Shown here one piece after another: positions 4,116 through 19,227 of a stretch of DNA of 29,460 nt (position 1 is its first letter; every line of letters begins with the position of its first letter). The stretch is from a virus: IMG/VR virus record IMGVR_UViG_3300020731_000062, positions 1 through 29,460 of that record, one strand, 5' to 3'. Made by a program: the position numbers and the translations under genes. The notes below the pieces were generated by a model. It saw nothing but the letters and a program-made list of their open reading frames with translations. It had not been told where the DNA came from and ran no database searches.

Positions 4116-4580
4116 GGAGTCGGAGGGAGTGAGTGAGCTTTGTTTAGGCGAAGGTTTGCCTAGAGGATAGCAAGCCATCCTCTAAAGCCTTACCTGAGTC
4201 GTCGGTCGCTCGTGTCGCCCCATTCAGGGGAGCTGTAAAGTTGTTCGCCAGCTCCTATACACCGAAATTATCCGCTCAACATGCGGCTTTCTCTAACAAC
4301 GTTTCCGGTGTGCGACGCTATCATTGCCACCCTACCGTCACACTGAAGAACGGATTTAAGTGTTGCCATCCAAGGCAGCTACTGTTGCGCCACGCTTTCC
4401 CTACGCGCTCGGTCTGAGAGACTTCTGTCCGAGATACCTTGCAAGCCAGAACTGTCGCAACTCTGCTCCTTGGGGACTACACTTTTGCTGATGCCATGAC
4501 GCAGTACAGCTACTCATTTCCTCAACCCTCGGTATGAAGTCATACCCGTTAGACTCTTGCAAGAAGTAACGGCAGAAAGC

Positions 4581-4680
4581 AAAAAACCCATTGGTGAACG
4601 AGCTTTAGGCTTGGTTGCCGCATAGACATAGAGCTACACCCCTATATCTAGCTTTGACGAAGCCCGCTCACCAATGGGTT
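4581..4680 (-). terminator. Promoter-proximal 21-bp hairpin followed by T6
   Basis: On the minus strand, arms 4660-4680 and 4585-4605 pair over 21 positions (two G-U pairs) around a 54-base loop that holds its own 9-pair hairpin. TTTTTT at 4581-4586 follows at once. It ends about 147 bases after the predicted transcription start. It could be an attenuator that decides whether the rest of the giant RNA and the operon are transcribed, or simply the first domain of the RNA. The large loop makes it an unusual terminator. Confidence 0.45.
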
Positions 4681-4733
4681 TGCGAGTGCGTTTGTGTAGA
4701 ACTACAACGGGTTACCAAGCCGTTGATGCGCGT

Positions 4734-4763
4734 AGTATATCAAACAACAAAAAAACGTGTCAA
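4734..4763 (-). promoter_or_regulatory. Strong sigma70-type promoter for the giant RNA
   Basis: The minus strand reads TTGACA (4758-4763, a perfect -35), an 18-base spacer rich in T, and TATACT (4734-4739, five of six matches to TATAAT). Predicted start near 4727. It points into the structured RNA and, beyond it, the left operon. It is among the best promoter matches noticed in the window. Confidence 0.75.
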
Positions 4764-4878: not shown

Positions 4879-4903
4879 AAAAAAAAGCACCCCGAAAGGT
4901 GCT
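4879..4903 (-). terminator. Intrinsic terminator ending the RNA array
   Basis: On the minus strand AGCACC, a TTTCGG loop region and GGTGCT form a compact GC-rich hairpin (4886-4903), followed by T8 (4879-4886). This is a textbook rho-independent terminator. No protein gene lies directly upstream of it, so it most likely ends the structured RNA transcribed from about 5499. Confidence 0.85.
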
Positions 4904-4976
4904 GTTGGTGCTCACATAAAGCAGTGTTTTTCAACTTTGAAGAAGGAAGCACTTACAACGGCGCTAACCCGTTGCA

Positions 4977-5077
4977 CACCAACACGGCTGGGGACTGAAT
5001 GTAAGAGATACTTGTTTTAGAGTACAAGCAAATTGGCTTTTAACCATAGTCAATCCCCATGCGTTTTGGCGTTGGTG
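4977..5077 (-). repeat. RNA array module 1
   Basis: Outer helix 4977-4983/5071-5077 (7 pairs), inner helix 4990-4998/5050-5058 (9 pairs including one U-G on the minus strand). Between them is an internal loop with ACGCAT on one side and AGCCGT on the other (minus strand), which is kept in module 2. The apex contains a CTTGT/ACAAG hairpin. Confidence 0.75.
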
Positions 5078-5127
5078 CTACCTTGGCGATTACTTATGTA
5101 GCTTGATTTTGCCTCGGGCTTTCGCCA

Positions 5128-5216
5128 CACCAACACGGCTGGAGACTGCACTTAAAGTCGGAACGCGTCCCACGGCTTCTAGCTGCCTCAATCCCCATGC
5201 GTGTTAGTTGTTGGTG
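5128..5216 (-). repeat. RNA array module 2
   Basis: Outer helix 5128-5134/5210-5216 (7 pairs), inner helix 5141-5148/5189-5196 (8 pairs, two of them G-U on the minus strand). The internal loop ACGCAT/AGCCGT is the same as in module 1, while the apical part is unrelated in sequence. Both wobble positions would be A-C mismatches if the plus strand were the RNA. Confidence 0.75.
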
Positions 5217-5296
5217 AGGTTTGGATTTCGTGGGATGTCCATTCTCCCGTGCGCCGTTGCGAACCCAACGGTAAGCGTCCTTCGTCTATCGCACTA

Positions 5297-5441
5297 CACC
5301 AACAAGAGTAGAGACTGATTGGAGTCATGACCTCCGTGGAGCATCGGGATGAAGATGTTAACTGCACCTAGCTGGCCAGACGGAACAGTTCAGAGCACCC
5401 ATGACCGACTTCTTCCCACTCAATCTCTACACTTCTTGGTG
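5297..5441 (-). repeat. RNA array module 3 (diverged, covarying)
   Basis: Outer helix 5297-5302/5436-5441 (6 pairs), inner helix 5308-5318/5420-5430 (11 pairs including the conserved U-G). The helix sequence differs from modules 1 and 2 at several positions, but both sides changed together, so pairing is retained. It has the longest apex (about 100 bases), and its 5' end abuts the T-run of the upstream terminator-like hairpin. Confidence 0.7.
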
Positions 5442-5468
5442 AAAAAAATCCCGACACCAGGCCGGGAT
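5442..5468 (-). terminator. Intrinsic terminator after the small nuclease-like gene
   Basis: The minus strand has ATCCCG, a loop, CGGGAT (5448-5468), then T7 (5442-5448). It would end transcripts of the gene at 5507-5818. It also lies only about 30-57 bases after the start predicted for the promoter at 5506-5534, so it may act as an attenuator for the RNA array. A second intrinsic hairpin close to a promoter mirrors the arrangement at 4581-4680. Confidence 0.75.
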
Positions 5469-5505
5469 AAACCCCAAAGGAGTAGCAACTACAGGAAACG
5501 ATTGC

Positions 5506-5534
5506 ATCATAACTCAACAATTCTGACTTGCCAA
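5506..5534 (-). promoter_or_regulatory. Sigma70-type promoter for the RNA array
   Basis: Minus strand: TTGGCA (5529-5534, five of six), a 17-base spacer, TATGAT (5506-5511, five of six). Predicted start near 5499. It overlaps the last codons of the nuclease-like gene, so the array has a promoter of its own just before a region with no gene. Confidence 0.65.
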
Positions 5535-5818
5535 CGGTTATCTACTTTTCTCCAACCATGCACCTCAATCTTTATCCCTGCCGAGAGGACGATTGGGTAA
5601 TTCTCATGGCCTTTGATCTTATTAACCCTACTGCTGACGTTGCCATAAGAGGTAGTTTGGACGCCCATAACCACACCTTCTGACAGACAAAGTATGTCAA
5701 TGAAACCAGCAAAATCATTCTTTCGCTTGGTAAAAAAGTTAAATCTTTCAACGACTTCTGCATAAAAACCTCTCTCCCTCATGTGCTTGAGACTCAACTG
5801 TGTTGTAGATATTGCCAT
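5507..5818 (-). CDS. Small PD-(D/E)XK-fold-like protein
   Basis: The start is chosen at ATG 5818 (MAISTTQLSLKHMRERG) because AAGGGA lies 5 bases upstream; an ATG 6 codons earlier (5836) lacks this. About 103 residues. The order of elements resembles small restriction-endonuclease-fold proteins: an N-terminal helix (SLKHMRERGFYAEVVERFN), then FAGFIDILCLSEGVVMGVQTT, where D in FIDIL could be the acidic metal ligand and VQTT sits where ExK normally lies. The Glu-x-Lys is therefore replaced by Gln-containing VQTT. The fold may be kept for DNA binding, or activity may be altered. A terminator follows. The nuclease assignment is tentative. Confidence 0.6.
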   Translation of the reverse strand: MAISTTQLSLKHMRERGFYAEVVERFNFFTKRKNDFAGFIDILCLSEGVVMGVQTTSYGNVSSRVNKIKGHENYPIVLSAGIKIEVHGWRKVDNRWQVRIVEL

Positions 5819-5825
5819 AAATCCC

Positions 5826-5854
5826 TTGCAAGACATGAATTAATTTAATACACT
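5826..5854 (+). promoter_or_regulatory. Possible promoter for the plus-strand recombination operon
   Basis: TTGCAA (5826-5831), a 17-base spacer and TACACT (5849-5854), each four of six matches to consensus. It lies 35 bases before the first plus-strand gene and within the divergent gap. Moderate quality; the AT-rich stretch between (ATTAATTTAATA) would ease melting. Confidence 0.4.
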
Positions 5855-10257: not shown

Positions 10258-13200
10258 TTATCTCTGTTTCTGCGCATTAGAAACTTGATCATTAAAGGTT
10301 TTCATTATTTGATATTTTTGAGCCTCATACTCACGAATATCTTTTAATGGAACCTTATTTTTTAACATGTTCTTTTTGTTTTTATTCATTTCATCGATCA
10401 CGTTATTGAAATTTGACGCAGCATAATATAACTGGGCTTCTGGGTGGGCAGCCATATATTTGCTTGGGTCTTGACCAGACTTTTGAGTATTGATAATTTC
10501 ATTACCATATTTGTTCATTAGCGTAATGTTGCTGTAGAACTTGTCTTGAATGGCCGCTTGGCTCTTTGCGTCACCATAGAAACGTCCTGCAAGCGGGATT
10601 CTATAGCTGGGCACTGGCTCACTGGTAAAGGCGGATTTAGCCAATTCACCGGCCTTGATGACCTCGCGAGCAGCTCCTCCACCAATTTGACCTGCATAGT
10701 AGTCAATCTCATCCGCGGTTGGACTAATCTTACCCTTGGTGTAGTGGGTTCCAGGAGGTGAACTGACATAGTTTAAGAACTCTGCAATCCACTGGCTTAT
10801 TTGTGTTGAATTCTCACGGCTCCTCATGAATCCAGGTGTGGGTTTAAGAGCGGTATCTTCTTTAAAGATTGGACGCCCAAACGCATCCTTATTCATTGTT
10901 ACAGCAACGATTGGATCTATAGGCGTTGGAGATAACATCTGAGCAATAGTACCGCCACCCAATGGGTTGAATGAATCTAAAAACAGACCCAAGACTTGTG
11001 TTGCTGCATCAGTGATTGGTTTGCCACCGCTAATCAAATGGTTCTTGCCAAGGATGTATTCTGTTGCAATGCGTGCAACACCCGGCACCACGTTGTATCC
11101 AGGGGGCATCGGGAGGGTTAAATACTTCTTGTTGCCAATCGGAATGATGAAGTTTTTATCCCGAATATAGTCTGGCGGCTCATCAGCATCAAACCCAGCC
11201 GCGGCCATCCACAAAGCCTGGAGAACGCCAACAGCAAGACCGCCTGCGATGATTTTTCTTCCTGCTGGACCGTTTAATGTTTTACCAACAAGAACTGCAC
11301 CCTGTACAGCGGGGTTAAAGAACGCATATAGGGCTTGTAGCAGAGGACTGGCTTGGCCTTTGCGGTTAAAGTTGATGGTGACATTCTTGCCAAGACTTGC
11401 TGCACGCTCTTCGCCCAAACCCATATCAAGAGCGACCTTGAATACAGACAGACGAACGGCGTTCTCCATTGCATCGTTGTAGTCCGACAGCAGGTCAAAC
11501 ACATACCTTGCCTTTTTCATGGCGCCGCTTTGAGTCTCGTCAGCCCACAGTCTCTCTATAATGGTTGTGTCCTTGCCGCTATAGTTACCTTTTGCAAATG
11601 ACTCTCTGAAACCGGTCGTTCCACCAGCCCGACGGAATCGATCATAAAGAGCAACATAAGGCCCAGTGACTGCTGCATTTTTTCTGCTTGCTCGCTCGCT
11701 TTGCATGATGGCAAATATTGCTGGAAACACATGTTTGGCAACTTCTTTTTGTTTGCCAGCCAACGGAGTGTTAGTCAAGTTGAATGCGGCACCAAAAGAA
11801 TCGCGCGTAAAGTTGATAACACCAAACACTGGATTAAACTGTGTATTAACAGACGCGATCCAACGCGTTATTTGCGCTGATGTACCCAGCAGGCCACCAA
11901 GGGTCTGGGCATCCAGGTTTGACATCGCCTGGGCCATTCTGATGGCTTTGGGATCCTTTGTATTGAAGAAGATGTAGCGGTCTTTGCCGTTGATCCTGAC
12001 AGGAAACACATTAGGACTGCTTCTGAGGCCTGCATTAATGGTGTACCGAACCTGACCAGTCAAAGGATCGATGCTGGGAGTCTTTGGTTCTTGGATGAAG
12101 TTCTGTGCAGTGGAGATGGGCAGACCCATCGAAACAAGCTCTTGATACAAAGCTGCTTTGTTCTTGATTGCATCAGGATTGACCGGTAACCAAAAGTCTG
12201 GATTGGGATTCTTTAGGGCCATGCCATACAGCGCACGACCAATCCTGGCTTTCTCAGAACGAATGATGGCACTCTCACGCTGGATGGCAATGTTGGCAAG
12301 AATGTCTACCACGGACTTTGTCGAGCCGTAGGCGCGCTTGGATGCGCTTCCTTTGACCTGGAAACCTTTACCCAAGCCAACACCATGATGCATGAAGTCA
12401 AGCTCTTCTTGATCCCTCATGAGTGGGATGTAGTGCTTGTAGGCTTGGTTCCAGTTGTCAATCGTCGCCTGAGTCTCGAGACCGCGGTCAACAAGAATCT
12501 TTTGCGTGCCCTTGATGATGTCGTCTACCTTGGCGGCAATCTTTGCGAGTTCAGCCGCTTTTGTTGGATCAAGATTTTTAAAGTAATCTTTGGCCGCCTG
12601 AGTGCCAATACCGGAGCCAGGCTCGTTATCAACATCCGCAAACCTGGGGTTGATCTGCGCAATAGCATCATTACGCTCTTCGGCGTGGCGGTTGTGTAAA
12701 TACTGCTCTAGATCATCGATACTAAGCTTGGCGCTTATTAAATCCTTGACGACGGGACTCAAGTCATTCTTGAGGAAGTCTTTGATCTCATTGGCTGTCC
12801 TGCCGTGATAGAGTTCTTCCTTCATGTACGCATCAAACGCGTCATCAATCAAGCCGGAATTCTTGGTAATCGCAGCTTGGACTTGCCTTGTATCAACGTG
12901 TTTGTCGTAAATTTTATAGTCAAGCGTGTTAATTAGATGGCCAAGCTTGGTCTCGGGCGCGAGATCCCAGGTCTTCTGTGGTGCGGGCCCTCCAAACACA
13001 TTCCTCTTGCTCGGGGGGCCTGGCGGGAACATATTGCCTTGTCGGCCTAGAGGAGCGCCTCCACCTCCTTGATTGACTTGGCCTTGCTGACCAGCTTGTC
13101 CAGCTCCTGGTAGAGGGAATAGGCTTCCTTGTTGCCCTCCTGTTGGTACAACTGAAGGTTGGTTGACACCCACGCCTTGAGCTGTTCCAGGTGCTTTGGA

Positions 13201-16200
13201 GGCTGAGGACTTGCCGTAATCTTCAAAAGACTTTGAAGTGTTTTGTGTAGTTGATTTTCCATATGCTTCCCTCATTGCAGTAAATGCAGACTCATTTCTT
13301 ACCAAAATGTCCATGAGGGCATCTCGGTAATAGTCCATCATACTTGAATCAGCAAGATAATTAGCGACTTTAATCATCTCCCCGTTGTGTTCAACGCCAT
13401 GACTCATGCTGCCCGTGTGAGCAATCTCATGGATCATCGTGTTGAGAATAGTCTCTCTGACACCAGCCAGTGTTTTTGCGCCAAAATTATAGAATGGATT
13501 AACAAATACACCCTTGTATGGGACTTTGATATGTACGCCACCGTATTTTTTATCAATAGAAACACCACCAAAAAAGAGGTTTTCTGGTTTTAATACATCG
13601 TATGAGTAAAGCCCGCTATCGGCTAGATTTTCTTTCATCTCAACCAACAATGTGCCTAGCTCTGCAAAGAATTTCTCTGGGTCTCCGTAAGGTCTACCAA
13701 CTTCAAGGTAGTCTACGTTTGTGTTGTTATGGAAAATAGGCAGCTTGGGGTCTTGACTCATGTTAACCATGAAGTCAGCCATCACGGGAGCTTCTTTTTC
13801 AGCTGTAAAAGTTGATTCTTTTTTGTTATCTTTTGGCTTTACCAAATCCTCGCCAGTTTTTGTTTTGACAAATCCATCACTAACAAAAATTTCTCGTGGA
13901 ACTGGAGGCAACTCAAATTTATTCTCGGCCCCAGCATTTCTGGTGTCAAAAGCCTTTTTTAGTTTCTTAGATGCATCGGCAATTTCAGAGCCAACTTCGA
14001 GGCGTGGCATTGAAACAATACCCTTGAAGTTTTCTTGCAAGTCTTTGGCCTCATTGCCCCTCGCCACTTGTTTTAAATACTCACCAAGAGACTTGATGTC
14101 CTCATCAATACGTCCTTTAAAGCGTTCACGACTGTTCTCAAACGGATAGTCTGGGTGTTTTGCATCTACATCAGGCTTGACGTTGATAAGAATATCGTAA
14201 GGGATGATTTCGGATTGACTTAAAGGAAAGTCGTGTCTAAATTGGTAAACACCGCTAGACAATACCTTGTGGTTTGGTCTATTGCTGTATCCTGAAGATT
14301 CTTTTCTATCAACGCCAAAATAAACATCAGCATCTCCCCACGAGAAATGCACCGTCGTGAGCTTGGGCATCTTCTTGTCGTCAAAATTAACCCCAACAGG
14401 CAGCGTCTCTTTGTTGCCGTTGAAATCAACAGTTACTTCTACAGGACCAACAAGAGGTTGTTTTAATGCATCAATAGAATCCTTGCTATAAGGGAACCAA
14501 ATATCTTTTTGATCGCCGGTTTTGGGATCTGTATATTTCTCTGGTATCGTGACTGTTACCGATGTACCGTGTTCTGTTGAGGGCGCTTTGGTTTTGTTGA
14601 TATCAAACTTACTGTCAGCAATTGCCCGGGAGTCGGTATCCACAGTAGTTCTAATGCCATCTCTAACAGTATCGAGCTTGAGTCTTTCCGAGCCCATCAT
14701 AAAGCCCATCTTGGCCAGACCCAATCCACCGCTTCGTTCTTTAGGATCGAGATCAGATTTATCAGACCCGGCCACAGTAAAGAATGCATCTTTTACAATG
14801 CTGGGCGTCATACCGCGGGCGTTATCTGTAACGGTGATTGTCCTGTCTTTTTGATTGAGAACAATATTGATCTTGCCCACTTTGACCAGTCCCAACTTGA
14901 CCGCCGCTTTGGACGCATCAAAAGCGTTTTGGAGCAATTCTTTTACAGACACGTCTGCTATGTTGGCCGCATACAGATTGCCGCCCAAAAGCTTAATTAG
15001 GCCTCCCATGTCTGCGTTTAGCTTACCCTTCTCTGTACCGGTCTGTTTGTCGGATGCTTTGGAGGCGGCAACCTTGGGCTCTGCGCCAGGTCTAAAGTTA
15101 AATGTTAATGTTTTTGCAGGCACACGCTGATATGCTTTTGGGTTTTTAGCGTTATCTGGTTTAAATCTAACGTAGTCACCCTCAACACCCAACACTATTC
15201 CTGGGACGCTGCCCATGCTTGCATGATCACCGGGCTGAAACTCTTGAGACTTTTGTTCAACAACATCATGTATTTTGTCATTCAAAGCCTCCATCTCGGC
15301 AGGTTTAGCCTCAACTTTTGGCTGGCCAAATAAATCCTCTTGGCCTTTGGCGGCAGCAGTGTCGGCAGGACGATTACTTCCTGTCAAAGTAAATTCACCG
15401 ACACCTTCGTCGGCCTTGGCTTTAGCCTCCGCCTCTCTCTCGGTTTTTAGACGGTCTTCTTTGGCGCGCTCTGCTGCTCGGACTTCATCTGGTGTTTGAC
15501 CGGTAAGTGCCAATTCTGCTTTACCTGGCTCAATAGCTCTATTCTCGTCTTCGGGCTCAATGACCGTATCAGCGAGGTCAGCTTCTCTTTGTTCATTAAA
15601 GGCTTCTTCAAGGAGGAGGTTGACATCTTTTAACTCCAGTTGTTGTTTGATTTGATCTTCTAACTCTTTAATATTGCCGCGCAAATCTTCTATTTGACTG
15701 GTGATCTTTTCTAATTCTTGCTCGGCATCAAACGTCATGTAATTATATTGGCGCAATCTTTCTTTAATATATTCCGCAGACTCTTTGTCATCAAAATTTG
15801 GTGCATCATGACGCATATCATTGGGTAAATATGCATCAAGTCTTCCGCTTAAAACAATATCAGACAAGCTTTGTCCGCCACTTTTGCTTTTTAATTTTGT
15901 AAATCTATCTTCTAAACTGATATCTCTAACGTCGGCAGCAGTTAAATCCCCCTTCAAGGCACCAAATAGACCAGTTGTTTTAACTTGCCTTCTGGCCATC
16001 TCAGCATATTCTAAATCCTTGTTGAGTTTTTCAAGATACAACTCATCTTCGGTTTTATTTGTCAGCTCCAGAGGAGGTGGAGTTTTTTTAACTCTAGTTT
16101 TTGTTGAAGTAATTAGTTTCTTTGCAGCCTTTATTGATTTATCGTGTTCAATCAAAGCCTTTTTCAATTCAGCATTGGCTTTTTGTATGGCCCTATTTTG

Positions 16201-19200
16201 CTCACCAGGCGTCATCTTGTTGTTCCTGGCCATCTCATCAACAGCAACCTGACCTTTGTCTTTTAATATATCTGCGGTGCTATTTAAATCATCAATTGCT
16301 TTTTGATGTGCGTCCGGATCTTTTGCTGTTGGCATGGACTCAGTTAATTGATTAACCAAATCATTTGATCTATTGATACCATCAACCGCGGGTTGCGCAA
16401 GTTTTTCTAATATGGGCGCCGGGGTTAACTTCGACTTGCCAACTTTAATTTTTGGTTCTATAGCGGCAGTTGGCTTTTCTTCTTCTGCCTTGGGTTCTTC
16501 TGGTGGTAATTTCTCTTCAACTTTTGGAACGACCTGCTCTTCTTTTTTGACTTCAGTAGGCTCATTAAACTTAGCGGCTTTTTCTGCTTGTTCTTTGGCA
16601 AAGTCTTTTGCTTTTGTTTCGGCCTCTTCCCCAAATGTTTTTGTAGGAAATGCTCTAGCTGAACCATTTACATATTTGCCTGCATCATTGTCAAACAAAT
16701 TGGCCACAAAGCCTGTAGGAGTTTTTAACACATGATAGTCGGTATTTTCTCCCATTGGAAAACTTGCCACTTGCTCAACATTGGGTGGTAATTTAGGGGT
16801 CTTTTTATCCTCAGACTTTGGCGCTTCAGCAGGGACAAGTGGTTTAATAGATTTATTAAAGTCGTCTATTTGTTTTTGATCAATTCCTATATCGGCAAGC
16901 TCTGTAAAAAATTCTTTTTTAATGCCGCCATGTTCTTTTATTGAATCCAAAAGAACTTCTTTAATATTGCTCTTTGCATCTTCAGGATTCATTTCTTGAA
17001 GATCTGGTTCTTTCTTTACACCATGCTCATATATTTTATTGGCAAAATCATTAACGTGGTCTTCTAGTGTTTTCTTGGGCTTAATAACTTCAACTGTCGT
17101 TGTATGAGGCGTTAATGTTCCGTCTGGTTTTATCCCGCCAGCATCTGAAAATTCTTGTTCTGCAATTTTTTCAAATGGAATGCCAGCTTTGTACGCTTCA
17201 GATGCGCGAGGCGTCAATTCAATTATGTTTCCCGATACAGGTACAAATGATAATTTGCCAGTTACATTATCTGCAATTATTTTTCCGTTAAGAACATCAC
17301 CTTCGTCTTCTGCAAGATAAGAATTTTTGATTGCAAGATTTGGAGATGTAGTGGAAGATTGAGAAACAGTTCCATTACGCAAAACAACTGAGTGTGTATT
17401 GTTGGCATCATCTGTTTTCTTTAATACCTCAGTGCCAGGCTGTAGATTTTTTCTTTCAACTTTTTCCCAACCAGTTGCATCAAATGCAACATCATTTGGT
17501 TTTACTTCTTCTTTTTTAGCTCCAGTCAACTCATCCAGCATAGCTTGAGTGTCTTGGCTATTAGATGGAGGAGCAACATCTCCTTCTTTTGGCTCTTGCA
17601 AAACTTTCTCGGCGGCTTCCTGTTTTTCAATGTTTGCAGCCGTTAAAGGCGGTCTCTGCACCTCTTCTGGAGCAAACTGAGCATATGCATACGAGTTGGG
17701 ATTTAAACGCGCTACAACGTCTTTATTGATGCCCTCTTGTGTAAATTCAGCATTGGCAACATCTTTTTTGATGGCATTTGCAACAGCAAGGTTGCGGCCA
17801 AACTCAGTTTTCTCTAACTGTCTTTGGGCTGCTTGCGTACCCTTTGTGGCTCCAATAGCAGCGCCAGCGGTAGCGCCAGATTGAATAATTGTTTGCCTTA
17901 AAGTCTCTGCAAGCTGTTCGTAAAGGCCACCTAAGCTTGGATTTTTGTTTGTGCCTATTCCTGGCAATATATCAATTCCATACTGGGTGGCAGTTGTTGC
18001 AAGCTCAGTAGGAAGCTCGTGAGCAATTGCATTCATAAAATAGGCGGCAACGTCATTTGCAGTAACTGGCTTTTTGTTCGGGGCTTCTTTGAACAATGTT
18101 TTCAATCCAGCCAATGACTTGGGCATACCAAACTGCTCAAACATAACTTCTGCGGCCGCTTGCAAACCAGCTCTTGCTGATGCTGCTACCGGGTCAAGAC
18201 CAGCTTGCCTGCCTTCGCCATAAGCTTGGCCATACTGCTGAACGCCAGCAAATGCCAACATTGGTGCGGCAGTTCCGGTAATTGTTCCAATCGCCATAAC
18301 TGGAGCTTGAGTAGCAAGTGTGGCAATTGCATGTTGAGCTGACTTTTCAAATAGGCTTGGTCCTGTTGGTACATTAGCACCCTTCTCGGATTCAACCCTT
18401 TGAGCGCCCATTAGATCTTTGGACATTTGGGCATCGCCAATCAGGTCGGCATAATTTTGCATCAAGCCCATGCCTGTTTGCGCAAGCTGTGATTTAGCTT
18501 CAGCGCCAACTCGAGTTAAAAATCCGGCTCCCTCAAGTTCTTTTGCCTGCTCCTGGACAGCTTTATCGGCTTGTTCACCAACAATATCAGGAGTCAATTG
18601 CTGAAGATCAGGTCGCATGACGCCGCGCTCTGCTTGCACTTGAGCCAATGTTCTAGCGGTCTCTGGATTTGCGCCCTGGTCTATAAAGCGATTTGTTTGT
18701 GTTTCAACTCTGGAGTCTGTAGCAAACTTTGCTTTTTCAGGCTGCAAGTCCATTGCTTTGTAGCGGTCAGCAATGATTTTTGCCGCCCTACCGCCAACAG
18801 TATTTTCTTGCTGAGTCAGTCTATCAATTGTTTGTTGCCTTTTATCTGGATCCATTACATCCAAATTTTTTTGCATACTTGCAACAAATTTTGGATTTAA
18901 TCCTTGCAGGTTTTCTTGCGGCAGTTGAACTCCAGACAATACGCTTTGGTATTCTGGCTTTTGAACATTGGCTATGGCAGACGCAAAATCATCCCCCGTA
19001 GGGTTGCCCAGACTTGGTTCTGGCGCTTCTTGGGTGGGTTGCGCTGGTACTTTTACCAGTTGCTGGTCTGGCACGGAAGGTGCTTTTTCATTTGCAGGCG
19101 TTTCTTTAGGCAATAAATTCTGCAAATTGCTAGAAATCAATTGCATCGCTTGATCAGGCGTTGTGCCTTCAGGAACCTCAAAACGCCCTATGCGTCCATC

Positions 19201-19227
19201 GGGCAATTCAAATCTTGCGATTGGCAT
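10258..19227 (-). CDS. Giant polyvalent virion protein (GHKL ATPase, metzincin-like protease, LPD38)
   Basis: This 2,989-residue protein is probably packaged and ejected with the DNA. It starts MPIARFELPDGRIGRFEVPE, behind AAGGATAAGCC. Regions: glycine/alanine-rich, membrane-active-looking helices at about 285-460; charged coiled-coil linkers at 500-1330, with an SH3-like segment near 1340 (PGIVLGVEGDYVRF); a GHKL ATPase at about 1400-1570 with N-box ELLQNAFDAS (Glu1430, Asn1434), DNARGM (Asp1468), GGLGL (1500-1504) and HGTSVTV (1553-1559); the zinc-protease motif HEIAHTGSMSH (His1933, Glu1934, His1937, His1943); a Gly/Pro/Gln linker at about 2000-2075; and an LPD38-type C-terminal region (VINFTRDSFG at 2470, NFNRKG at 2619, hydrophobic helix near 2658-2679). 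Polyvalent proteins are proposed to protect incoming DNA or manipulate the host. No single enzymatic role is proven here. Confidence 0.85.
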   Translation of the reverse strand: MPIARFELPDGRIGRFEVPEGTTPDQAMQLISSNLQNLLPKETPANEKAPSVPDQQLVKVPAQPTQEAPEPSLGNPTGDDFASAIANVQKPEYQSVLSGVQLPQENLQGLNPKFVASMQKNLDVMDPDKRQQTIDRLTQQENTVGGRAAKIIADRYKAMDLQPEKAKFATDSRVETQTNRFIDQGANPETARTLAQVQAERGVMRPDLQQLTPDIVGEQADKAVQEQAKELEGAGFLTRVGAEAKSQLAQTGMGLMQNYADLIGDAQMSKDLMGAQRVESEKGANVPTGPSLFEKSAQHAIATLATQAPVMAIGTITGTAAPMLAFAGVQQYGQAYGEGRQAGLDPVAASARAGLQAAAEVMFEQFGMPKSLAGLKTLFKEAPNKKPVTANDVAAYFMNAIAHELPTELATTATQYGIDILPGIGTNKNPSLGGLYEQLAETLRQTIIQSGATAGAAIGATKGTQAAQRQLEKTEFGRNLAVANAIKKDVANAEFTQEGINKDVVARLNPNSYAYAQFAPEEVQRPPLTAANIEKQEAAEKVLQEPKEGDVAPPSNSQDTQAMLDELTGAKKEEVKPNDVAFDATGWEKVERKNLQPGTEVLKKTDDANNTHSVVLRNGTVSQSSTTSPNLAIKNSYLAEDEGDVLNGKIIADNVTGKLSFVPVSGNIIELTPRASEAYKAGIPFEKIAEQEFSDAGGIKPDGTLTPHTTTVEVIKPKKTLEDHVNDFANKIYEHGVKKEPDLQEMNPEDAKSNIKEVLLDSIKEHGGIKKEFFTELADIGIDQKQIDDFNKSIKPLVPAEAPKSEDKKTPKLPPNVEQVASFPMGENTDYHVLKTPTGFVANLFDNDAGKYVNGSARAFPTKTFGEEAETKAKDFAKEQAEKAAKFNEPTEVKKEEQVVPKVEEKLPPEEPKAEEEKPTAAIEPKIKVGKSKLTPAPILEKLAQPAVDGINRSNDLVNQLTESMPTAKDPDAHQKAIDDLNSTADILKDKGQVAVDEMARNNKMTPGEQNRAIQKANAELKKALIEHDKSIKAAKKLITSTKTRVKKTPPPLELTNKTEDELYLEKLNKDLEYAEMARRQVKTTGLFGALKGDLTAADVRDISLEDRFTKLKSKSGGQSLSDIVLSGRLDAYLPNDMRHDAPNFDDKESAEYIKERLRQYNYMTFDAEQELEKITSQIEDLRGNIKELEDQIKQQLELKDVNLLLEEAFNEQREADLADTVIEPEDENRAIEPGKAELALTGQTPDEVRAAERAKEDRLKTEREAEAKAKADEGVGEFTLTGSNRPADTAAAKGQEDLFGQPKVEAKPAEMEALNDKIHDVVEQKSQEFQPGDHASMGSVPGIVLGVEGDYVRFKPDNAKNPKAYQRVPAKTLTFNFRPGAEPKVAASKASDKQTGTEKGKLNADMGGLIKLLGGNLYAANIADVSVKELLQNAFDASKAAVKLGLVKVGKINIVLNQKDRTITVTDNARGMTPSIVKDAFFTVAGSDKSDLDPKERSGGLGLAKMGFMMGSERLKLDTVRDGIRTTVDTDSRAIADSKFDINKTKAPSTEHGTSVTVTIPEKYTDPKTGDQKDIWFPYSKDSIDALKQPLVGPVEVTVDFNGNKETLPVGVNFDDKKMPKLTTVHFSWGDADVYFGVDRKESSGYSNRPNHKVLSSGVYQFRHDFPLSQSEIIPYDILINVKPDVDAKHPDYPFENSRERFKGRIDEDIKSLGEYLKQVARGNEAKDLQENFKGIVSMPRLEVGSEIADASKKLKKAFDTRNAGAENKFELPPVPREIFVSDGFVKTKTGEDLVKPKDNKKESTFTAEKEAPVMADFMVNMSQDPKLPIFHNNTNVDYLEVGRPYGDPEKFFAELGTLLVEMKENLADSGLYSYDVLKPENLFFGGVSIDKKYGGVHIKVPYKGVFVNPFYNFGAKTLAGVRETILNTMIHEIAHTGSMSHGVEHNGEMIKVANYLADSSMMDYYRDALMDILVRNESAFTAMREAYGKSTTQNTSKSFEDYGKSSASKAPGTAQGVGVNQPSVVPTGGQQGSLFPLPGAGQAGQQGQVNQGGGGAPLGRQGNMFPPGPPSKRNVFGGPAPQKTWDLAPETKLGHLINTLDYKIYDKHVDTRQVQAAITKNSGLIDDAFDAYMKEELYHGRTANEIKDFLKNDLSPVVKDLISAKLSIDDLEQYLHNRHAEERNDAIAQINPRFADVDNEPGSGIGTQAAKDYFKNLDPTKAAELAKIAAKVDDIIKGTQKILVDRGLETQATIDNWNQAYKHYIPLMRDQEELDFMHHGVGLGKGFQVKGSASKRAYGSTKSVVDILANIAIQRESAIIRSEKARIGRALYGMALKNPNPDFWLPVNPDAIKNKAALYQELVSMGLPISTAQNFIQEPKTPSIDPLTGQVRYTINAGLRSSPNVFPVRINGKDRYIFFNTKDPKAIRMAQAMSNLDAQTLGGLLGTSAQITRWIASVNTQFNPVFGVINFTRDSFGAAFNLTNTPLAGKQKEVAKHVFPAIFAIMQSERASRKNAAVTGPYVALYDRFRRAGGTTGFRESFAKGNYSGKDTTIIERLWADETQSGAMKKARYVFDLLSDYNDAMENAVRLSVFKVALDMGLGEERAASLGKNVTINFNRKGQASPLLQALYAFFNPAVQGAVLVGKTLNGPAGRKIIAGGLAVGVLQALWMAAAGFDADEPPDYIRDKNFIIPIGNKKYLTLPMPPGYNVVPGVARIATEYILGKNHLISGGKPITDAATQVLGLFLDSFNPLGGGTIAQMLSPTPIDPIVAVTMNKDAFGRPIFKEDTALKPTPGFMRSRENSTQISQWIAEFLNYVSSPPGTHYTKGKISPTADEIDYYAGQIGGGAAREVIKAGELAKSAFTSEPVPSYRIPLAGRFYGDAKSQAAIQDKFYSNITLMNKYGNEIINTQKSGQDPSKYMAAHPEAQLYYAASNFNNVIDEMNKNKKNMLKNKVPLKDIREYEAQKYQIMKTFNDQVSNAQKQR

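Follow-up and report, generated by a model that had tools for sequence, protein, structure and literature searches.

What is encoded by the repeated and inverted arms on the minus strand of IMG/VR phage record IMGVR_UViG_3300020731_000062, the 29,460 bases of which are, as a whole, the window of this study? A first-pass annotation had described a tandem array of three homologous RNA modules, and the direct repeats and inverted arms were located as claimed on this strand, in module 1 (4977-5079), module 2 (5128-5216) and module 3 (5297-5441). The internal loop ACGCAT/AGCCGT attributed to modules 1 and 2 was confirmed, and the same two modules have GGGGATTG/CAGTC(C/T)CC in common. Module 3 carries AGAGATTG/CAGTCTCT with a different loop, confirming that both sides of its inner helix are altered. 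The annotated wobble was likewise confirmed: each of the three modules has it as U-G when the minus strand is read. On the opposite strand the frequent T-G pair would become C-A, which identifies the minus strand as the one from which the RNA is read. The segment 4879-5441 comprises three two-armed RNA units in a chain, with an intrinsic terminator at its end.

In each unit, a constant hinge hairpin bears a variable tip and is fused to a tail closed by GUUGG..CCAAC; each GTTGG is common to the end of a hinge and the start of a tail, so that neighbouring parts overlap by 7 nt. Going 5' to 3' along the minus strand, one meets the end of a 109-aa gene, then a terminator-like hairpin, hinge 3, tail 3, hinge 2, tail 2, hinge 1, tail 1 and the terminator. 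The unit 3 hinge with its tip (5297..5441) comprises a 5' strand at 5421-5441, the tip at 5318-5420 and a 3' strand at 5297-5317, its arms forming inverted repeat I2 (85% over 26 nt). It is a variant hinge with loop UGU/ACU and lower stem AAG/CUU, and its tip, of the family GGUCAUG..CUUCAUCCCGAUGCUC, has homologues in L031, L052, L053 and L098 (59-69% identity) and also in L129. The same tail type as in unit 3 (5210..5303) likewise occurs in L129; this tail is closed by GUUGGUG/CACCAAC, a helix supported family-wide. The unit 2 hinge (5128..5209) joins ACGCAUGGGGAUUG and CAGUCUCCAGCCGUGUUGG around a 40-nt tip (5149-5188), and its tail (5071..5134) has the GUUGGUG/CACCAAC closure and is of the UGGCGAAAGCC type, with a start also seen in tails of L008 and L076. 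The unit 1 hinge (4977..5070), with the strands ACGCAUGGGGAUUG and CAGUCCCCAGCCGUGUUGG and a tip at 4998-5050, is covered by the free-stem covariation test described below. Its tail (4904..4983), again with GUUGGUG/CACCAAC closure, is represented in a 44-sequence alignment (A1) and contains a hairpin NNNGG-GUUAGCG-CCNNN, a hairpin CAC-UGCUUUAU-GUG and a loop-loop pseudoknot AGC/GCU.

The array proper starts at 5441, where blastn alignments of the relatives L123, L124, L125 and L146 break (5441-5442). Its transcript ends at the annotated intrinsic terminator (4879..4903, minus strand; 7-bp stem, 4-nt loop, 8 T), which a terminator scan recovered at 4886-4903; having its own terminator and leading no gene, the array is free-standing. 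The promoter that had been assigned to it is doubtful. This promoter-like site (5506..5534, minus strand, 10/12 consensus) lies inside the end of the 109-aa ORF (5507-5836, minus strand), whose 3' end is conserved in relatives, and between site and array stands a terminator-like hairpin (5441..5468, minus strand; 5448-5468 in the scan), just upstream of the array and probably belonging to the preceding 109-aa gene. Because of the overlap with a conserved ORF end and the terminator before the array, the site is weak evidence, and two promoter-like sites were found in the region against 1.8 expected by chance. Across loci, a promoter at a fixed distance ahead of the first units was rejected, TANNNT being only modestly enriched at -24 and -19. 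The window also encodes a separate conserved small RNA (4580-4728, minus strand), a long hairpin with a T-run (CCCATTGGTGA..TCACCAATGGGTTTTTT) and a near-perfect promoter at 4734-4763 (TTGACA-18-TATACT), which is 72-86% identical in L124, L129, L142, L143, L156, L180 and L181 and has no Rfam match. At 10258-19227 (minus strand) lies the gene of a giant 2989-aa phage protein, the C-terminal 880 residues of which match phrog_14770 and phrog_616.

The earlier statement that no described RNA class has this build agrees with the searches, in which no Rfam family matched the hinge in the window or in 27 relatives. The Rfam covariance models (4227 families, gathering threshold) gave no match in the window, CRISPR families and phage packaging RNA (pRNA) among them; many relatives' arrays adjoin terminase genes. 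The 27 relatives returned tRNA only, with no match for the hinge or its domains even at lax thresholds. Up to E=5, the window region gave only weak hairpin matches near the terminator at 5441-5468 and a further one at 5678-5768, and ARAGORN found no tRNA and no tmRNA in the window. The int-alpA RNA (RF02996) fell just below threshold at L016 329-397 (minus strand, downstream of the array) and at L076 2677-2753 (minus strand). A CRISPR array or RNA anti-CRISPR was rejected, the repeats being divided into arms of 14 and 21 nt that flank variable inserts, as was integron attC, since GTTGGTG misfits GTTRRRY (sixth base T) and the hinge has G-U pairs on one strand only, as in RNA. No description of such an RNA family was found in the open literature; a subscription paper may hold one.

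Conservation of the hinge was assessed by a free-stem pattern test in place of a covariance model, since tip lengths range from about 20 to 120 nt. In the pattern used, ACGCATG-N-CAGCCGTGTTGG, the loops are specified and the stem may have any sequence; with the loops and GTTGG set by the search, the pairing figures speak for the free stem positions only. At stem positions 2-8 of 229 distinct modules, 1562 of 1603 cells are paired, compared with 1431 (sd 4.6) after shuffling, and in the 83 modules with a non-consensus 5' strand the corresponding values are 544 of 581 cells and 434 (sd 5.7). Sliding the partner strand by 1-3 positions, a control that, unlike the shuffles, preserves relatedness among modules, reduced pairing from 97.4% to 36-58%. 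The stem occurs in 64 different combinations, with G-C, A-T, C-G and T-A at several positions, and the lower stem is also altered on both sides (ACG/CGT, AAG/CTT, ATG/CAT). The first-pass annotation had proposed that pairing rather than sequence is kept, and this extends to the 229 distinct hinges, in which 97% of cells are paired with the stem left free and the two strands change together rather than independently. A search of phage contigs placed the module, with compensatory changes, in about 200 other fetched contigs, which excludes chance. The absence of a credible gene was also upheld: no reading frame is conserved, tips are of every size from 20 to about 120 nt, and a protein-coding reading of the AUG in GCAUGG was rejected because frames and stops are not conserved.

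The annotated outer helix CACCAAC/GTTGGTG stands in part, as one of two competing pairings. The strand upstream of the hinge can pair with GUUGG, extending the hinge, at 74-98% per position; GTTGG can also pair with the next CCAAC downstream, which lies 35-200 nt after it across units. Two free pairs beside GTTGG/CCAAC scored 0.74 and 0.74 in the 47 units deviating from TG, against 0.47 and 0.44 (sd 0.06) when shuffled. Since covariation supports this downstream pairing, the true unit is hinge plus tail; the tail domain, half of each unit, had been overlooked. In the family of the tail at 4904-4983 (44 sequences), 97.9% of cells are paired, 57 cells are altered on both sides versus 11.3 after shuffling, and the covariation score is 0.353, versus 0.114 when shuffled and at most 0.107 when slid. 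The loop-loop helix is AGC/GCU in 37 of these tails (A-U) and GGC/GCC in the other 7 (G-C), with no exception. Such covarying helices and the loop-loop helix indicate a folded domain with a tertiary contact. The tail at 4904-4983 has a closing helix, two hairpins and a loop-loop contact (from covariation only), elements of a tRNA-like build, and tails of this type would thus formally resemble the tRNA elbow.

The array is not private to one phage; the three units are one instance of a large combinatorial family. The 15-mer CACCAACACGGCTGG occurs in at least 120 stretches of viral contigs, most of them the same hinge and a minority chance matches in coding DNA. A complete scan of one narrow slice of the strict pattern yielded 31 contigs, of which 18 were already among the matches listed earlier; extrapolation from this overlap gives roughly 200 IMG/VR contigs with the strict consensus and a larger number with the relaxed one, placing the hinge in hundreds of contigs. 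Relatives of the exonuclease gene beside the array bear arrays that differ but occupy the equivalent position. Across 84,980 prokaryote genomes, no match to the strict pattern and two to the relaxed pattern were obtained: one, in Nocardia, looks like chance and was discarded, and the other, in a Halothiobacillus MAG, is real. The MAG has two copies of the hinge stem GGGCATTG/CAGTGCCC, and its unit copies (L354, L368-L371) are 88% identical over 144 nt and lie near phage-like genes; no further hinges were found among 369 genomes of its class. Searches by blastn with the region and consensus units did not detect the hinge in 50,697 phage isolate records, plasmids gave no convincing match, and the array was absent from named-phage relatives of the array-bearing terminase. 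Owing to this near absence from isolate phages and genomes, the domains cannot be linked to hosts.

Tips and tails together amount to 439 domains in about 231 sequence families, 88 of them with two or more members (counts that rest on a blastn threshold and single linkage). The parts combine almost without restriction: the 205 units that have a tip as well as a tail represent 197 different combinations of the two. The 11 occurrences of tail family F2 involve 11 tip families, and family F3 is found 7 times in the tip position and 4 times in the tail position; an F3 domain without hinge, 83% identical over 65 nt, is also found in an intergenic region of Cylindrospermopsis phage Cr-LKS3 (L348, about 5000-5065). 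Of the tip pairs, 42 differ at no more than about three positions; 29 of these are in contigs without detectable flank similarity, and four of the 29 are 100% identical, including tip 2 of the window and that of L104 (40/40), the flanks of which are unrelated. Near-identical tips in contigs with unrelated flanks demonstrate recent cassette transfer, and the conservation of domains within families suggests that each was probably selected for its own fold. We are dealing, almost certainly, with an undescribed phage RNA family in which a constant hinge carries an exchangeable tip and tail, units are chained and domains are swapped as cassettes from phage to phage.

The surroundings of the arrays bear on what such RNAs do. 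A gene for the small or large terminase subunit lies within 2 kb downstream on the same strand at 55 of 121 loci (RNA-selected, with enough downstream sequence), compared with 9% of random positions, at a median distance of 217 nt. For 108 of the 166 last units, a start codon and ORF lie no more than 160 nt further on, without a terminator (median 33 nt; ORFs of 60 or more codons, by a mechanical rule), and 9 of 166 end in a terminator. Other arrays lie inside tRNA arrays or beside other genes. Genes for tRNA-Met (CAU) stand just downstream at 16 of 197 loci (L033, L094, L104, L114, L250, L310 and others); several of these phage genes, as read from their sequences, have the C1xA72 mismatch typical of initiator tRNA. 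In L235, L238 and L249 the hinge starts immediately after the CCA with which a phage tRNA ends, and the L238 unit sits between tRNA-Gly and tRNA-Met. Further conserved, structured-looking RNAs (AGAACCTCGGTGTGACCCGCACCTCC..GGGAGGGCGGC.. and related) lie downstream of the array in L143, L177, L123 and L146 and are possibly another large phage RNA; Rfam searches in L143, L177 and L123 gave no match for them.

Our tentative first choice is that the array RNA would act in trans as a polymorphic multi-domain ligand, most likely a counter-defence decoy. The trans role is argued from the window array, free-standing, with a terminator and leading no gene; the units found directly between or behind phage tRNAs also speak for this explanation. 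In the proposed mechanism, the hinge and acceptor-like helix would serve as a standard backbone for folding and stabilising the transcript, and perhaps for its processing in the way of a tRNA array, and each tip or tail would be a different folded ligand occupying a host factor. The targets would most likely be defence proteins that sense or cleave RNA or tRNA. In many phages, transcription together with the late (terminase) operon could make the RNA abundant late in infection, and cassette exchange could renew the phage's ligand set as hosts change, like the warhead swaps of polymorphic toxins. A decoy is favoured because there are precedents for phage RNAs that overcome defence: phage tRNAs counter tRNA-cutting defence systems (PMC11555353, PMC10264068) and RNA mimicry of the ToxIN antitoxin defeats ToxIN (PMC3475682). 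Against the ligand reading, none of the tips or tails was matched to a host RNA or known defence system.

The placement before packaging genes (55/121 loci) suits a cis role equally well. The arrays could be cis-acting leaders of the packaging or late operon, each unit being a two-state switch that pairs GUUGG upstream or downstream and so would control antitermination (as HK022 put RNA does), RNA processing or terminase translation. The terminase enrichment and short distances, the many last units running into an ORF start and the pairing of the upstream strand with GUUGG all favour such a leader. We nevertheless regard it as rather unlikely, since the arrays of the window and of L143 end in their own terminators, some arrays lie in tRNA arrays or beside other genes, and a switch has no need of about 231 swapped domain families. 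A cis leader alone leaves the free-standing arrays and the wealth of swapped domains unexplained, and the trans ligand is preferred on this account.

An improbable role is that of a structural or assembly RNA, either a ROOL/GOLLD-like nanocage or scaffold or a packaging RNA, with tips as interchangeable surface features. The arrays are large folded phage RNAs near tRNAs, as are ROOL and GOLLD (PMC12286853), they adjoin terminase genes and tertiary contacts are present; however, no Rfam large-RNA family matches, and lengths as different as a single tail (L123) and three or more units suit a fixed cage poorly. Also quite improbable are selfish or neutral cassettes that would spread by recombination at the hinge and hitch-hike in tRNA arrays and late leaders: tips do move between unrelated phages, and hinges are joined directly to tRNA CCA ends, but pairing and within-family domain sequences are strongly conserved, there is no mobility gene, and free recombination at 14-21 nt would need a dedicated or very permissive recombinase. 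Chance repeats or protein-gene remnants can be dismissed, being refuted by covariation in 229 distinct modules, by the lack of a conserved frame and by tip lengths of every size.

Under the trans-ligand reading, it is conceivable, short of probable, that natural phages share a pool of hundreds of RNA cassettes, freely combined on a standard backbone, as a polymorphic RNA arsenal; by analogy, this might be a counterpart of polymorphic toxins or anti-defence islands. Its near absence from phages in culture and from sequenced hosts would explain why such an arsenal has escaped notice. To our knowledge, every structured phage RNA described to date has one fixed fold. A family that recombines about 231 RNA domain families on a constant joint, across hundreds of uncultured phages, represents a new organisation of functional RNA, and the swapped domains offer a natural library of folded RNA ligands for testing against host proteins. 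The arrays may account for part of the long intergenic leaders ahead of terminase genes, and if the decoy idea is true, RNA-based counter-defence is far commoner and more modular than known.

Among known systems, GOLLD and ROOL are likewise large, highly structured, phage-encoded and often near tRNAs, but each is one long fixed fold, whereas here short two-arm units with swapped domains are repeated and no covariance model matches. HK022 put RNA, an antitermination leader, is similar in being a phage RNA with two hairpin arms that opens an operon; it differs in sequence, and the present units are chained, domain-swapped and, in the window, ended by a terminator. With tmRNA the arrays have in common a tRNA-like domain and other domains in one RNA, and L036 contains an 18-nt T-arm-like match; however, no tmRNA was found by ARAGORN or at the gathering threshold, and the array is without a tag frame. 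The likeness to tRNA (RF00005) lies in the closing helix of about 7 bp that joins both ends of a domain and two hairpins with a loop-loop contact, in the real D- and T-arm sequence of certain tails and in the location of some units between tRNAs. Tails of L112 and L118 reach the RF00005 threshold, and some cassettes are thus tRNA-derived; in contrast, the tails of the window are without an anticodon arm, the 3' end is CCAAC-AACC and not NCCA, and most tails are un-tRNA-like in sequence. In organisation, the analogy is with polymorphic toxins and integron cassettes, which also place exchangeable cassettes on a constant scaffold; here, there is no integrase site and no protein, and the cassette is a folded RNA domain.
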